A stretch of DNA of 35,443 bases, taken from Chloroflexota bacterium (lineage in GTDB: Bacteria > Chloroflexota > Anaerolineae > Anaerolineales > RBG-16-64-43). The DNA lies in NCBI GenBank assembly GCA_026389925.1, contig JAPLGX010000169.1:1-35443 (forward strand). The letters run 5' to 3'. Shown here piece by piece: positions 1,270 through 13,184 of this stretch. Every line of letters starts with the position of its first letter. Position 1 is the stretch's first letter. The notes under the pieces were generated by a model that worked only from the letters and a program-made list of their open reading frames with translations, had not been told where the DNA came from and searched no databases. The position numbers and the translations under genes are program-made.

Positions 1270-1695
1270 GTGGCAAAGAAACTCAAAGCCGTTGTCCGCC
1301 TGCAAATCGAAGCCGGCAAGGCCAACCCGGCGCCGCCCATCGGCCCGGCGCTGGCCGGCCACGGCATCAACCTGATGGCCTTCTGCAAGGAATACAACGC
1401 GCGCACCGGCAGCCGCCCGGGCGAAATCATCCCGGCCGAGATCAGCATCTTCAGCGATGGATCATTCACCTTTATCCTGAAGACCCCGCCCACGCCGGTG
1501 CTCTTGCGCAAGGCGGCCGGCCTCGAGAAGGGCTCCGGCGAGCCGAACCGCAACAAGGTGGGTTCGGTCACGCGCACGCAGGTGCGTGAAATCGCCGAGG
1601 TCAAACTCAAAGATATGAACGCGGTGGATATCGAAGGCGCGATGCGCATGGTGGAAGGCACCGCGCGCAACATGGGTATCACCGTCGAAGAATAG
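1270..1695 (+). CDS. rplK: 50S ribosomal protein L11
   Basis: [49 protein letters not shown] start at 1270 with AAGGAG SD. Confidence 0.97.
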
Positions 1696-1698
1696 TCT

Positions 1699-1733
1699 GT
1701 GGGAGGACGGCTCGCGCCGTCCGCTCGGACCAC
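1699..1733 (+). promoter_or_regulatory. Stem-loop in rplK-rplA spacer (GTGG-GA-GGACGGC-TCGC-GCCGTCC-GCTCGGA-CCAC)
   Basis: Perfect 7-bp stem 1705-1711/1716-1722, outer GTGG/CCAC; paralogous to 1221-1255 with a G-C to A-T compensatory change. Confidence 0.6.
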
Positions 1734-1744
1734 AAGGAGAGAAC

Positions 1745-2470
1745 ATGCCTGCACCGAAACACGGCAAGAAGTACAACGCGGCCGCCGCACAGGTGGACGC
1801 CGAAAAGCTTTACGCTCCCGCCGAAGCGCTGCACCTGGCCAAGACCACTTCCTTCACCAAGTTCGACGCGACGGTGGAAGTGCACATGCGCATGGGGGTG
1901 GATCCCAAGCACGCTGACCAGCAGGTGCGCGACGTGGTTGTGCTGCCGCACGGGCTGGGCAAGACCGTGCGAGTGCTGGTCTTCGCGGCGGGTGAGGGCG
2001 CGCGACTGGCGCACGAAGCCGGCGCGGACCACCTAGCCGACAGCGACGAAATGCTCAAGAAGATCCAGGATGGCTGGACCGAATTCGACGTGGCCATCGC
2101 CACGCCGGACATGATGGGCAAGGTGGGGCGCCTGGGGCGTGTGCTCGGGCCGCGCGGGCTGATGCCCAACCCCAAGGCCGGCACGGTGGTCCCCGCGGAA
2201 GACCTGGGCAAGGCCGTGCGCGAAGCCAAGGCCGGGCGCGTCGAGTTCCGCCTGGATAAAACGGCCAACCTGCACGTGCCTATCGGCAAGGCCTCCTTCT
2301 CGGAGGAAGCGCTCTACGACAACCTGGCGGCGCTGATGGAGGCGGTCAAGCGTGCCAAGCCGGCCGCCGCCAAAGGCACCTACATCCGCAAGTTGGTGGT
2401 GACGACGACCATGGGCCCCGGCGTGTGCATCGATCCGAACGAAGCCCAGGCTATGGAAGCACGCGGTTAA
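1745..2470 (+). CDS. rplA: 50S ribosomal protein L1
   Basis: [12 protein letters not shown]...[25 protein letters not shown]...[25 protein letters not shown]. Confidence 0.97.
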
Positions 2471-5845: not shown

Positions 5846-8719
5846 ATGTGGAAAACGCTGCGTGCGGCCCGGCATCACCGCTTGAGGCGCACTCGGCGGT
5901 GGTTGCGTGCGCCCGCAGGCAGCCTCGGCCGTCTGCGCCCGGCGGCAGTCCTCGCCCGCCTGGCGGCTGCGTTGCTGGGCGTCGCGGGCCTCATCCTCCT
6001 TTTGGCCGCCGCCTACTCGCTGTGGAGCGCGATCACATTGTTCCCCGCGGCAAGGGCGGCCTCGCGCGTGCGGCTCGATATCCCCGGCCCGCCCTACACC
6101 TCGCCGCGCTTTGTCGATCGAACTGGCAGCCGACTGCTCTCCTCGGTGGCGGACGCCGCTCACACGCCGTATTGGCTTTCGATCTCTTCCTCAGGAGAGG
6201 GACATGCAGTGCCGCCACTCGCTCTCGCCGCGGCACAGCTTGCGCTGGGTATCGACACAACGAGCCGACCGGCGGGGGTGGGCGCCGGGCTGACCGCCAT
6301 AGCGCACAGCCTCAAAGGAACGATGGACGCCGCCGGGTTGGCGGCCGAGGGCTTGGCCGAGCGGCCGGATTTGGCGGCGACCTTCGCCACCCGCCCGATG
6401 GCGCGGGCCATCCTGGCCGGTGAATTGGCCTCACGCTATTCGACTCAAGAACTCCTTGAGTGGTCCCTCAACACGCAGCCGTACGGTCATCTGACCCGCG
6501 GCCTGGACGCGGCGGCGCTCGAGGACTATGGCGTGCATGCGGAGCGGCTGGGGCTTGCCGAGTGGGCGACGCTGGCCGCGCTCTCGAGCCAGCCTGAGCT
6601 CGGCGGCAATGTGCATGCACTCGCCGCGGCACGCAATATTCTGGTGCGGCAATTGCGCGAGCGCGGATTGGTCGATGCGGCCTCTGCCGCAACGGCCGTG
6701 GCGGCCACTCCCGTCATTCAACCGGCGGTCTCCGCCCTCAGCCCGGTCACTTCGGACTTCCTCGCCCTGGCACGGAGTCAACTCGAAGAGCAAGAAACGC
6801 GGCTTGCGGCGAGTGCGACACCCCTTGTGGTCACGACCAGCCTCGACAGTGAGATGCAGTTGCAGGCGCTGTGCGCGGCGCAAACCGTGCTGGCCCGCGC
6901 TCAATCGGGTACTGCCGTAACGGCGATGCCCACCCTGGACGGACGCGAATGCGCCGCGGCAGAGTTCCTCGACACAGCGCAGCCGGCCGGCGAGGCCGAC
7001 CTGGCCGTGGCAGTCTGGGATGTCGAGCGGTCGGAATTGCTCGCCTATTTCACCTCCGCTCGCGGCAAGAGCGGCAGCGAAGCTTACGGTCAGGCAGGCA
7101 CGGCCGTCCTGCCGTTTGTCTATCTCACGGCCTTTGCCAAAGGGTATACACCCGGCACCATGGTGTTGGACGTGCCTCAGGCAGTTGGGCAAGCGCAAGG
7201 CACGCGGGTGACGCCCACGAACCTCGACGGCCGCTACCTCGGCCCGATGCTGGCCAGCCAGGCGCTGCGCGAGGAGCGCATCGTGCCGGCCGTCAGTGCG
7301 ATGGCCGATGTGGGCGGCGACAATCTGCGTCAGACGCTGACCGGCGTGGGCCTGGGTGCGCTGGCCGATACTGCGGGCGGCCTGCCGGGCCTGTTCAGCC
7401 AGCAGGGTGAGCTGTCGCTGCTCGAGCTGACGCGAGCCTATGCCATCTTCGCCGCGGGGGGCCTCGATCGTGCAGCTTCGGCCAACGGCCTGCCCATTCT
7501 CATTCTTGCGGCTCGCGACCCAGGCGGGAACTCGGTGATGCCCGCCGCGCAGGTCGAGCCGCGTCTCGTCCTCAGCCGCGGACTGGCCTACCTCATCCAG
7601 GATGGCCTCCGCCGGGAAGTGCTTGCCAGCAACGGCTCGCGTGCACCGTCCGGCGCGCTGGCTGCCGGGAGCAGCCTGAGCGGGATCCATCACTGGGCGT
7701 TCGCGTTCGATTCCCGTCTGGTTGTCGGCGTGCTGGCGACTTCAACGGGCCCTTCGGACGGTTCGCTGGATAACATCGCCGAGCCCGTCGCACGAGCGGT
7801 TCTGGCGTGGTCCGCCGGATCTTATGCGTCCGCGCAATTGGCTCAGCCGCCGGAGGTGAGCCGAGTGCGCGTGTGCTCGCCCTCCGGGATGCTTCCCACA
7901 CCGGCTTGCCAGCAGGTTGTCAGCGAAGTGTTTCTTTCGGGCACTGAGCCCACGTCCGACGATACCTACTATCAGTCCGTGGCGATCAATCGCGAAACTG
8001 GGCGGCGTGCCACGCTGTGGACTCCGACGGCGCTGGTGGAAAACGTGGGCTTCGTCAACCCGCCGCCAGCCGCCCGCGAGTGGGCTTTGGCCAATGGGTT
8101 GGTACTTGCGCCCCAGGAATACGACACGCTGCCTTTGGCTTTCGAAGCCACACCCGATCTGATCATTCGCGCACCGGCACCCTTTGCCATCGTGCGCGGC
8201 CCGGTGGAGGTGCATGGCACCGCGGCCACGCCCGAGATGGTTCACTTCCGGCTGGAGGCTGGCGAGGGACTCTACCCGCAGCGGTGGCTGCTTCTGGCCG
8301 AGGGCGATAAGCCTCTCACGGGGGCGCTGCTGGCGACGTGGGATACGGCCGCGCTGGACGGCACGGTCTCGCTGCAAGTCAGCACGACCGACGCGCAAGG
8401 CAACTTGCGCCGCATGGCTGTTCCGCTGACGGTGGACAACCAGGCGCCGGAGGTGCACTTCGCGACACCAGCGGCACAGGGTCGAGTCGATCTGCCGCGT
8501 GCGGCCCCGCTGGCAGCGGTGGTGGAGGCCAGCGACAATTATGGTGTGCAGCGGGTCGAGCTGATCCTTGACGGGCACGTCGTCATCGTATTCGAGCGCG
8601 CGCCATACTCGATGAGATGGAGCGGCCTCCCGGCCGGGCGGCATACCCTCCAGGCACGCGCCTACGACGCGGCGGGCAATTCGGCGCTCACGCCGATGCT
8701 CGAGATCGAAATCAACTGA
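5846..8719 (+). CDS. PBP1C-like bifunctional penicillin-binding protein homologue with C-terminal Ig-like region; catalytic motifs appear lost
   Basis: GT51-like segment (ILAGELASRYSTQELLEWSLNTQPYG...LGLAEWATLAALSSQPEL), transpeptidase-like segment (AGTAVLPFVYLTAFAKGYTPGTMVLDVP), PBP1C-type VCSPSGMLPTPACQQVVSEVFLSGTEPT, C-terminal Ig-like; N-terminal TM. Confidence 0.75.
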   Translation: MWKTLRAARHHRLRRTRRWLRAPAGSLGRLRPAAVLARLAAALLGVAGLILLLAAAYSLWSAITLFPAARAASRVRLDIPGPPYTSPRFVDRTGSRLLSSVADAAHTPYWLSISSSGEGHAVPPLALAAAQLALGIDTTSRPAGVGAGLTAIAHSLKGTMDAAGLAAEGLAERPDLAATFATRPMARAILAGELASRYSTQELLEWSLNTQPYGHLTRGLDAAALEDYGVHAERLGLAEWATLAALSSQPELGGNVHALAAARNILVRQLRERGLVDAASAATAVAATPVIQPAVSALSPVTSDFLALARSQLEEQETRLAASATPLVVTTSLDSEMQLQALCAAQTVLARAQSGTAVTAMPTLDGRECAAAEFLDTAQPAGEADLAVAVWDVERSELLAYFTSARGKSGSEAYGQAGTAVLPFVYLTAFAKGYTPGTMVLDVPQAVGQAQGTRVTPTNLDGRYLGPMLASQALREERIVPAVSAMADVGGDNLRQTLTGVGLGALADTAGGLPGLFSQQGELSLLELTRAYAIFAAGGLDRAASANGLPILILAARDPGGNSVMPAAQVEPRLVLSRGLAYLIQDGLRREVLASNGSRAPSGALAAGSSLSGIHHWAFAFDSRLVVGVLATSTGPSDGSLDNIAEPVARAVLAWSAGSYASAQLAQPPEVSRVRVCSPSGMLPTPACQQVVSEVFLSGTEPTSDDTYYQSVAINRETGRRATLWTPTALVENVGFVNPPPAAREWALANGLVLAPQEYDTLPLAFEATPDLIIRAPAPFAIVRGPVEVHGTAATPEMVHFRLEAGEGLYPQRWLLLAEGDKPLTGALLATWDTAALDGTVSLQVSTTDAQGNLRRMAVPLTVDNQAPEVHFATPAAQGRVDLPRAAPLAAVVEASDNYGVQRVELILDGHVVIVFERAPYSMRWSGLPAGRHTLQARAYDAAGNSALTPMLEIEIN

Positions 8720-8768: not shown

Positions 8769-9518
8769 ATGCGCATGACAGTCGGGAGAGGGTTTTTCAC
8801 GCTTGTCTTGGCGGGGCTGGCTTCGGCGTGCAGCCTGCGATTGGGCGCGCCCACGCCCGGTCCGGCGACCATCGCGGCCCTGACGGTTCAGGCCGTGCTC
8901 ACTCAGGTGGCACGCGACCACACGCCGACGCCTGGGCTGGCGATCACGCCGGGCTTGCCCACCGCCACGCCGGTGGCGCTGCCGAGCGCCACCTTGCGCG
9001 CGCAGCCGACTTTCTTTCCCACCGAAACCGATACTCCCATCCCGTGCTATCGCATGCAATTCGTTGCCGATGTCACTCTGCCCGACAACTCGCAAGTCAA
9101 GCCGGCGGATACGGTTGTCAAGACTTGGCGCCTGAAGAACGTAGGCGCGTGCATCTGGGGACCCGACGCGCAGATCGTGTTTTTCAGCGGCGACCGGATG
9201 GGCGGTCCGCAAAACCAGGCGATAGGCAAGACGATTCCTCCGGGCGGCGAGAGCGAGATCAGCATCACCTTGGTTACCCCCACCCAGGCCGGCACCTTCA
9301 TGGGTTACTGGATGTTGCGCAGCCCGGATGGGATCCGTTTTGGTTACGGCGTGCAAGGCGATCAAGCTTTTTGGGTGCAGTTGGTGGTCGTGGGCACGCC
9401 CACCGGAACGCTCAGCCCGACGCCCTCGCAAACGGCAACCGCCACCCCGCCCGCGACGCTGACGCCCACGCCTTCGCTGACCCCGACCGAGACTCCCACC
9501 CCCACCCCGACATCGTGA
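8769..9518 (+). CDS. Secreted lipoprotein with NBR1-type Ig-like domain flanked by Thr/Pro-rich linkers
   Basis: Signal/lipobox LAGLASAC; FVADVTLPDNSQVKPADTVVKTWRLKNVGACIWG...FFSGDRMGGP...GTFMGYWMLRSPDGIRFGYG matches NBR1-Ig-like pattern; PTPTPT tail. Confidence 0.75.
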   Translation: MRMTVGRGFFTLVLAGLASACSLRLGAPTPGPATIAALTVQAVLTQVARDHTPTPGLAITPGLPTATPVALPSATLRAQPTFFPTETDTPIPCYRMQFVADVTLPDNSQVKPADTVVKTWRLKNVGACIWGPDAQIVFFSGDRMGGPQNQAIGKTIPPGGESEISITLVTPTQAGTFMGYWMLRSPDGIRFGYGVQGDQAFWVQLVVVGTPTGTLSPTPSQTATATPPATLTPTPSLTPTETPTPTPTS

Positions 9519-11457: not shown

Positions 11458-12210
11458 CTATCCGCCAGTTTTCTCGACCACCCACAGATGAGAAAGGCCG
11501 AAAGCGCGCAGAGGCGTGTTTTCGAGGGCTTGCAGCACGCCGCGCAGCAGGCGCCCCAGACGGGGCGCGCGGGCTACGATGTTGTCGTACCCGCCGAAGA
11601 CGATCGTGCGCTGCACCGGGTGCGCCGGCAGGCCGCGCAGCAGCCCATCGAGTTCGCGTGAGGTGTAGGCGCGAACATGAGGCGCCAGGCGGTCGCGCCA
11701 TGAGCGGGGCAGGTAGTTGACGAGCGGGATATTGCCGAAGTGGTAGCGCCCGCGCCAATACACACCGTGGGTCTCGAAGGGGTAACTGCGATTCGGCACG
11801 AAGAGGACCAGCCGGCCGCCGGGCCGCAGCACGCGCATGATCTCGCGCAGCGCCTGGCGATCATCCGCCACGTGTTCGAGCACTTCGTTGGAGAGGACCA
11901 GGTCGAACGAGGTCGAGGCGAAGGGCAACGCCTCCGCCTGGCCGGCGAGCAGCCCCGCGATTCCTGCTCGCGAGCCCTCACGCACGCGTTCGATCTCGAT
12001 ATCCAAGCCGGCCACGGAGCGCGCGAAGGGCCGCAAGGCGCGGACGTACATCCCCAGCCCGCAGCCATCCACGAGCACGCGCGCCGAGGCGAGCTGCGGC
12101 GCGGCACGTCGGATCATCTGCAACCGGCGCTCTTGGCCGGCGCGCCACACGTGCGAAGGCTCGCCGCGTTCGGCGGCTTTGCTTAAGCTGGAGGGCTGGT
12201 CCACTGCCAT
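11458..12210 (-). CDS. Class I SAM-dependent methyltransferase
   Basis: [28 protein letters not shown]...[39 protein letters not shown]. Confidence 0.88.
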
Positions 12211-12638
12211 TCCTCTTTGTGGCCGAAGCCTTTGCGGTTATCGACCACGCGCGCCCAGCTCAGCCGGAAGAGGTGCAGCCGGGCGCCGGCCAGCGCTGCC
12301 TGCAACTCACCCACGAACGGAAAGCGGGCGCGGTACACCTGCCAGCCGCGCTCGTGCTGCGCGCCGTCCACAAGCTGCGCCGTCCCGCGCATCTGGGCGC
12401 CGCGGATCTCCTGCCAGGCGCGGCTGGGCGGGAAGAGCGTTACCGCCGCGCGCGGGTCGCGCGCCAGGTTGCGGCCATGCTGCGTGTCGGGTGTGGAGAG
12501 AAGAAAGAATTCGAGCTGCGGGGTGTAGGCGAAGTACACCGCCGCCGCCATCGGCTCGTCCGCAGCGCCTGCCGTGGCTAAAGTGAAAGCGTGGCACTCG
12601 GCGCACAGCTCGAGCAGCGCAGCTACAGTCGGTTCCAT
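12183..12638 (-). CDS. Pyridoxamine 5'-phosphate oxidase-like FMN-binding protein
   Basis: [68 protein letters not shown]. Confidence 0.75.
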
Positions 12639-13184
12639 ACCTTGAGCAGGTCGCTTTCGATGCCCAGCCGCGCCAGAACTCGCCCCACCGTCTGGTCGAC
12701 AATGTCTTGAATCGTGCGCGGGTGAGTGTAAAAGGCGGGTAGCGGAGGCATGATCACCGCGCCGGCCTCGGCGGCCTGCGCCACCAGCCGCAAATGACCC
12801 AGAGGGAGCGGGGTCTCGCGCACCACAAGCACCAGCGGCCGGCCCTCCTTGAGCGTCACGTCGGCTGCGCGCCATAAGATCGGCCAAGTAGGAGGTGGCA
12901 ATCCCCGAGAGGCTCTTCATCGAACACGGGATGACGGCCATGTCGCGCGTGGCAAATGAGCCGGAGGCGATCGCCGCTCCGATGTCGTCGGGCGAATAGC
13001 TGGTATGAGCCAGCGCCTCCACCTGGCTCAGCTTGTATTCGGTCTCCTGGGCAATCGTCACCCGCGCGGCCTTGGAGAGCACCAGGTGCGTCGCGACCTG
13101 AGTGCGCTGCAGCGCCTCCAGCAGGCGAATGCCGTAGGTCACGCCGCTCGCGCCGGTTATCCCCACAACCAATCGTTCGATCAT
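12623..13184 (-). pseudogene. ubiX: UbiX-family flavin prenyltransferase, interrupted by a single frameshift near 12870-12876
   Basis: Frame 1: MIERLVVGITGASGVTYGIRLLEAL...ASGSFATRDMAVIPCSMKSLSGIATSYLADL; continues in another frame: WRAADVTLKEGRPLVLVVRETPLPLGHLRLV...MPPLPAFYTHPRTIQDIVDQTVGRVLARLGI. Confidence 0.85.

Follow-up and report, generated by a model that had tools for sequence, protein, structure and literature searches.

Domain Organization and Genomic Context

The stretch of DNA analyzed here (the window; 35,443 nt, contig JAPLGX010000169.1, from a Chloroflexota bacterium of the order Anaerolineales) bears an ORF related to class A PBPs, whose domains and motif sites are collected in Table 1 together with other features of the window. 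As had been predicted, its 957 aa frame reads through intact. An anchor, a GT51 domain and a transpeptidase fold are present in the order typical of class A PBPs; the protein is a class A PBP by homology, and its phmmer matches among solved structures are PBP1a and PBP1b. Concerning profile searches, the best NCBIfam match is PBP_1a_fam (E-value = 3.4e-38), with PBP_1c at 1e-34. Pfam Transgly scores above its cut-off, with an alignment only from profile position 87 onward, Transpeptidase reaches an E-value of only 0.14, and Big_7 matches the C-terminus (1e-9). The N-terminal GT51 lobe was called degenerate from the alignment and this partial coverage of the Transgly profile, and in the remaining part of the domain N209, G214, G219 and A223 are invariant in 41/41 aligned relatives.

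Table 1. Features of the window, with positions on its 35,443 nt.
Feature	Position	Strand	Basis and details
Catalytically dead class A PBP homologue, 957 aa	5846..8719	+	Intact ORF, NCBIfam/Pfam matches, AlphaFold model
N-terminal membrane anchor helix, ~residues 31-73	5936..6064	+	Hydrophobic segment; model helix 30-73
GT51 catalytic lobe remnant	6209..6346	+	EDxxF region reads ALGIDTTSRPAG, Glu to I136 (nt 6251); GASTITQQ motif reads GTMDAAGLAA
GT51 fold, C-terminal half retained (EWSLNTQPYGHLTRGLDAAALEDYG...)	6392..6745	+	Pfam match and alignment
Transpeptidase-fold domain, ~residues 401-660, without SxxK, SxN, KTG	7046..7825	+	Alignments and model
SxxK site, AGTAVLPF (S to T419, K to L422)	7094..7117	+	Alignment (nt 7100 and 7109)
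SxN site, LREERIVPA (S to E477, N to I479)	7265..7291	+	Alignment (nt 7274 and 7280)
KTG site, ALAAGSSLSG (K to A606, T to A607, G608 kept)	7655..7684	+	Alignment (nt 7661-7669)
Conserved cysteine-motif module (VCxPSGxLPTxxC ... NRETGxxAT ... YD)	7826..8170	+	C677 and C688 invariant
Two tandem Ig/FnIII-like domains, ~776-863 and 864-957 (second = Pfam Big_7)	8171..8716	+	Pfam 1e-9 and model
Putative lipoprotein	8769..9518	+
ORF with partial flavoprotein and PNPOx_N domains	12183..13184	-	Domain matches
SecA, ~1370 aa	20039..24151

The putative lipoprotein lies directly downstream of the PBP gene, is conserved there throughout the window's family (f1), and is a candidate partner. Synteny in this family comprises miaB, a thioesterase, the PBP and the lipoprotein, and in families f7/f14 it comprises ssb, NAD kinase, recN and the PBP. 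Neighbors are constant within families and differ between them, and no conserved operon partner was found across families; a conserved operon was discarded as a functional clue, since the gene order of f1 and that of f7/f14 are not common to both. Elsewhere in the window, SecA is well above the usual 800-900 aa; the order has repeated examples of SecA frames of 1,150-1,470 aa, and many outgroup SecAs from the same taxonomic class measure ~950-1,050 aa. The reverse-strand ORF, in which the partial flavoprotein domain is followed by PNPOx_N, could be a fusion or result from a sequencing frameshift.

The original prediction described a PBP1C-like protein. The architecture and the cysteine motif agree with this description, but PBP_1a_fam is the best profile, none of the equivalog cut-offs is attained and, in this order, another paralogue is the true PBP1C, so that the label PBP1C is doubtful. 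Specifically, the window protein scores 120.2 bits against the TIGR02073 PBP1C equivalog (cut-off 494.2), and its intact orthologues score 388-414 bits with PBP_1c and higher with PBP_1a_fam. BiPBP_C (PF06832) gives an E-value of 0.025 and 14.9 bits, under its cut-off of 26.8, and Big_7 fits the same region better. An identity with the PBP1C linked to alpha-2-macroglobulin (A2M) was also considered and rejected, as A2M genes lie near a different paralogue (L058 type; genomes G010, G015, G017, G023, G030, and G039) and the intact orthologues score best with PBP_1a_fam. The L058-type protein of the same order is likewise a class A PBP with a cysteine motif after the transpeptidase domain, and L058 itself reaches 485.8 bits against the PBP_1c cut-off of 494.2, but it is a separate paralogue with all motifs intact; no A2M match was detected in genomes G000-G004, nor in family f1, and the window genome has no detectable A2M gene. 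With the bifunctional PBP1A/PBP1C superfamily (TIGR02074, TIGR02073) the window protein shares the domain order, the anchor, the predicted fold and a common ancestry with the intact orthologues, whereas it differs by lacking the catalytic residues, by its degenerate GT51 N-lobe and by scores far under both curated cut-offs.

Loss of the Catalytic Motifs

Motif positions were read against the intact paralogue of the window's own genome (L002, contig C148), and the same register was obtained from two independent alignments, one built by MAFFT with ~50 relatives and one by hhalign between the dead-clade profile and L002 (E-value = 5e-85). At the aligned positions of the window protein neither the GT51 catalytic Glu nor SxxK, SxN or KTG is found. 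The Glu position holds Ile in both alignments, and the Ser and Lys of SxxK, as had been claimed, are replaced within AGTAVLPF. The claimed losses of SxN and KTG also stand, although not the triplets named for them: SxN aligns with E-R-I rather than REE, and KTG with AAG rather than SSL. These registers had been placed a few residues off, which leaves the conclusion unchanged. Motifs at shifted positions, named beforehand as a possible refutation, were searched for as well. In residues 380-660 the pattern [ST]xxK does not occur, and a single K[ST]G (KSG, 408) and a single [ST]xN (SAN, 545) are both missing from the orthologue of the other genome of the genus (G001), which is 82% identical. A rescue of catalysis by shifted motif copies was thus rejected, no conserved copy being found in this region, and the loss stands. 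As far as its sequence can tell, the window protein is confirmed to be devoid of any catalytic residue in either domain.

Distribution and Origin of the Dead Form

From the scan for relatives the best 80 of 202 were kept, and all of these belong to Chloroflexota apart from one contig labeled Arcobacter. The latter (L134, DYJN01000119.1) has a PBP of the dead clade, placed within Chloroflexota sequences, and is probably a mis-binned contig. The motif census covered 113 distinct sequences, namely 43 intact relatives, 69 members of the dead clade and L089. Glu, Ser, Lys, Ser, Asn, and KTG are all present in 43/43 intact relatives, while the SxxK Lys and the SxN Asn are each missing in 69/69 dead-clade members; the first two of these counts together show that the motif loss is not due to chance. 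Within the dead clade the GT Glu is missing in 66/69 members (three keep it), the SxN Ser is kept in 2/69 and a complete KTG in 10/69. The clade has an SH-aLRT support of 100 in a tree from which the motif columns were removed. Other members of the window's family, all of them dead, are 35-38% identical to the window protein, and the dead form also occurs in the cultured strains Anaerolinea thermolimosa IMO-1 (L088) and Longilinea arvoryzae KOME-1 (L114). Random frameshifts in orthologues had been named as a second possible refutation, and the frames were read accordingly: no frameshift or internal stop was found in any dead-clade ORF read, over ten lineages, and the flags "1 TAG" and "1 TGA" carried by some members refer to stops outside the coding frame.

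Outside the dead clade, L089 (JAHEEY010000009.1, Chloroflexi bacterium Ww301) has TxxK for SxxK, GxY for SxN and TTG for KTG and keeps the GT Glu. On these motif residues it is a second, independent, partial inactivation, in view of which the intact-type orthologue may be prone to loss of catalysis. A further pattern was noticed within the dead clade, where most members (e.g., L015, L088, L114) have Asp in place of the SxN Ser together with a still basic residue at the KTG Lys; the two co-occur in 52/52, and the window's family and f4 have lost the pair, as if the two residues formed a salt bridge closing the old cleft. Such an Asp/basic staple was not retained as a finding, because the perfect co-occurrence reflects only 3-4 independent changes and is not significant.

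Scores with PF00912 are bimodal, with intact proteins mostly at 168-219 bits and dead-clade proteins at 30-103 bits. A GT51 protein of intact score is also present in 34/35 genomes with the dead form, the exception being G001, which is 72% complete. A search for an active paralogue elsewhere in the genome had been proposed, and the window genome indeed has an intact one: its two GT51 proteins are the dead PBP and the intact class A PBP on contig C148, besides which it encodes four class B-type transpeptidases. None of the genomes examined has both the dead form and its intact orthologue.

In 9/9 cases an orthologue taken from another family or order of the class is intact, and the five proteins of family f8 are all dead. 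An earlier unrooted SecA tree left the number of losses ambiguous, and the addition of nine outgroup genomes settled the count. In the SecA tree rooted on these nine genomes (family labels assigned by program, long-branched G041 left out), families whose orthologue is intact (f2, f3, f9, f10, f15) diverge first, and one clade (SH-aLRT 96) unites the ten dead-form families (f1, f4-f8, f11-f14), so that the state changes once. One ancient inactivation in the common ancestor of ten Anaerolineales lineages, followed by vertical descent, fits best, because the ten lineages form this single clade. Additionally, a methyltransferase gene that adjoins the intact orthologue in f9/f15 is found in the window at 2.7 kb from the dead gene, a position that supports a shared ancestral locus. 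Four genomes inside the dead clade (G009, G020, G029, and G053; 91-97% completeness) lack the dead PBP gene, from which it follows that it is useful but dispensable, and not strictly essential.

Selective Constraint and Predicted Structure

Between the window gene and its congener dN/dS is 0.226 (bootstrap 0.18-0.27), with 0.20 for the GT, 0.24 for the TP and 0.24 for the C-terminal part, and neighboring genes of the same pair give 0.09-0.17. Six dead pairs range from 0.12 to 0.28 vs. 0.02-0.13 for six intact pairs. The dead protein is under purifying selection, looser than that on an enzyme. The place of the constraint differs as well: in the intact set identity is higher in the catalytic domains (0.64-0.67) than in the C-terminal cysteine module (0.51), whereas in the dead set the catalytic domains (0.38-0.45) fall below the C-terminal module (0.57). 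This reversed order indicates that the focus of constraint has moved to the C-terminal cysteine-motif/Ig-like module. The original view of a conserved pseudoenzyme, and not of gene decay, is borne out by the single clade, which spans ten lineages and has intact frames, by purifying selection and by the presence of another, intact class A PBP in the genome; judged by sequence comparison, conserved loss of catalytic residues under purifying selection, and hence the status of a pseudoenzyme, is strongly supported.

The AlphaFold model, built on 41 relatives, has a pLDDT of 85.2 and a pTM of 0.71. Its best PDB matches are class A PBPs (Escherichia coli PBP1b, 2.4e-24; Haemophilus influenzae PBP1A, 2.7e-24), and the overall PBP fold is predicted to be kept; the high full-length rmsd probably reflects the arrangement of the domains. 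Residues 655-957 are modeled with a pLDDT of 93.6 as strand-rich domains ending in two Ig/FnIII-like sandwiches. Among solved structures this region comes closest to an S-layer protein, adhesins, a biofilm scaffold protein and the FnIII-like modules found in a cellulosomal enzyme. Family f8 proteins lack the last Ig-like domain. In the window's genome, a small membrane-anchored protein (L003; C9 of G000, 1477-2133, reverse strand) carries the Ig-like domain of residues 769-862 of the dead PBP, and could possibly be an interaction partner or share a wall-binding module with it.

Proposed Function

On balance, we lean toward a pseudoenzyme of single origin and vertical descent that acts as a tethered scaffold or regulator of cell-wall synthesis. 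Trees and motif counts show that a class A PBP lost catalysis once, in the ancestor of the ten family-level lineages, and it was then inherited vertically under purifying selection. According to alignment and model, one N-terminal helix anchors the degenerate GT lobe, a transpeptidase fold without nucleophile or base, and the conserved cysteine/Ig-like module. Such a protein could presumably neither polymerize glycan, nor cross-link stem peptides, nor be acylated by beta-lactams; acting as a non-catalytic scaffold or allosteric regulator tethered to the membrane, it may position or activate the intact synthases, namely the PBP1A-type paralogue on contig C148 and the class B PBPs, through contacts made by its C-terminal module and by surfaces of both former catalytic domains. 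Degenerate LytM factors such as EnvC and NlpD are naturally inactive relatives of cell-wall enzymes that regulate active ones, although they differ from the dead PBP in having an unrelated fold and in serving another step of the pathway (amidase activation). The proposed role is supported by the fact that class B PBPs keep a structural role after loss of catalysis: that of PBP 2B outlasts it in Bacillus subtilis (PMC5656894), and SpoVD and PBP3 have non-catalytic structural roles in Clostridioides difficile (PMC12713402). The likeness lies in a role independent of catalysis; those proteins are laboratory active-site mutants of class B PBPs, in contrast to a naturally dead class A lineage. Against a scaffold or regulator speak the variable neighbors and the four genomes without the gene; moreover, sequence does not separate it from a purely structural surface protein. 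Whether the ancient dead PBP also took over the locus of the active orthologue and became a dedicated scaffold or regulator, with the C-terminal module now its functional center, appears to us evenly balanced.

The main rival, which we consider rather unlikely, is a structural or adhesive surface protein, with the PBP domains reduced to a membrane-proximal stalk or wall-binding spacer and the C-terminal module binding wall, S-layer or neighboring cells. Within the dead clade that module is conserved best, its nearest solved folds include surface and adhesive proteins, and the small membrane-anchored protein L003 has the same Ig-like domain; but the former catalytic domains are constrained too (dN/dS 0.20-0.24 in the window pair) with their fold apparently kept, and the f8 proteins do without the last Ig-like domain. 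Improbable in our opinion is a sensor or decoy that signals or titrates a ligand (lipid II, nascent glycan, stem peptide, or beta-lactam) still bound in the old clefts but not turned over. The predicted retention of the fold would suit it, as would the new pattern of most dead members (S/T-x-x-T, Asp for the SxN Ser, KTG Lys kept; Asp with a basic residue in 52/52), yet this pattern is missing from the window's own family (E477, A606), the co-variation lacks significance as described above, and there is no cytoplasmic signaling domain. Harder still to credit is a rebuilt active site with a new catalytic activity: Ser or Thr occupies the nucleophile position in most members and the KTG Lys is present in 50/70, but no residue set is fixed, the nucleophile position also holds P, A, G, M, or D, at least 11 residue types are found at the SxxK Lys position, and the window's family differs again. 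Finally, gene decay to a non-functional leftover could draw on a dN/dS above that of neighboring genes and intact relatives and on the loss of the gene in a few genomes; it was ruled out, to the point of being scarcely conceivable, by the intact frames over ten lineages and a dN/dS far below 1.

It is by their catalysis that class A PBPs are defined as drug targets, and most knowledge of PBP roles without catalysis comes from class B mutants made in the laboratory. A search of the open literature returned no description of a naturally dead class A PBP. Automated annotation will label the dead-clade proteins as beta-lactam targets, which, going by their motifs, is almost certainly wrong. The dead protein very probably does a non-enzymatic job that has not yet been described. 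Its presence in ten family-level lineages amounts to a natural separation-of-function experiment, in which the protein body alone proves worth keeping, and offers a clean system for finding which of its surfaces matter.
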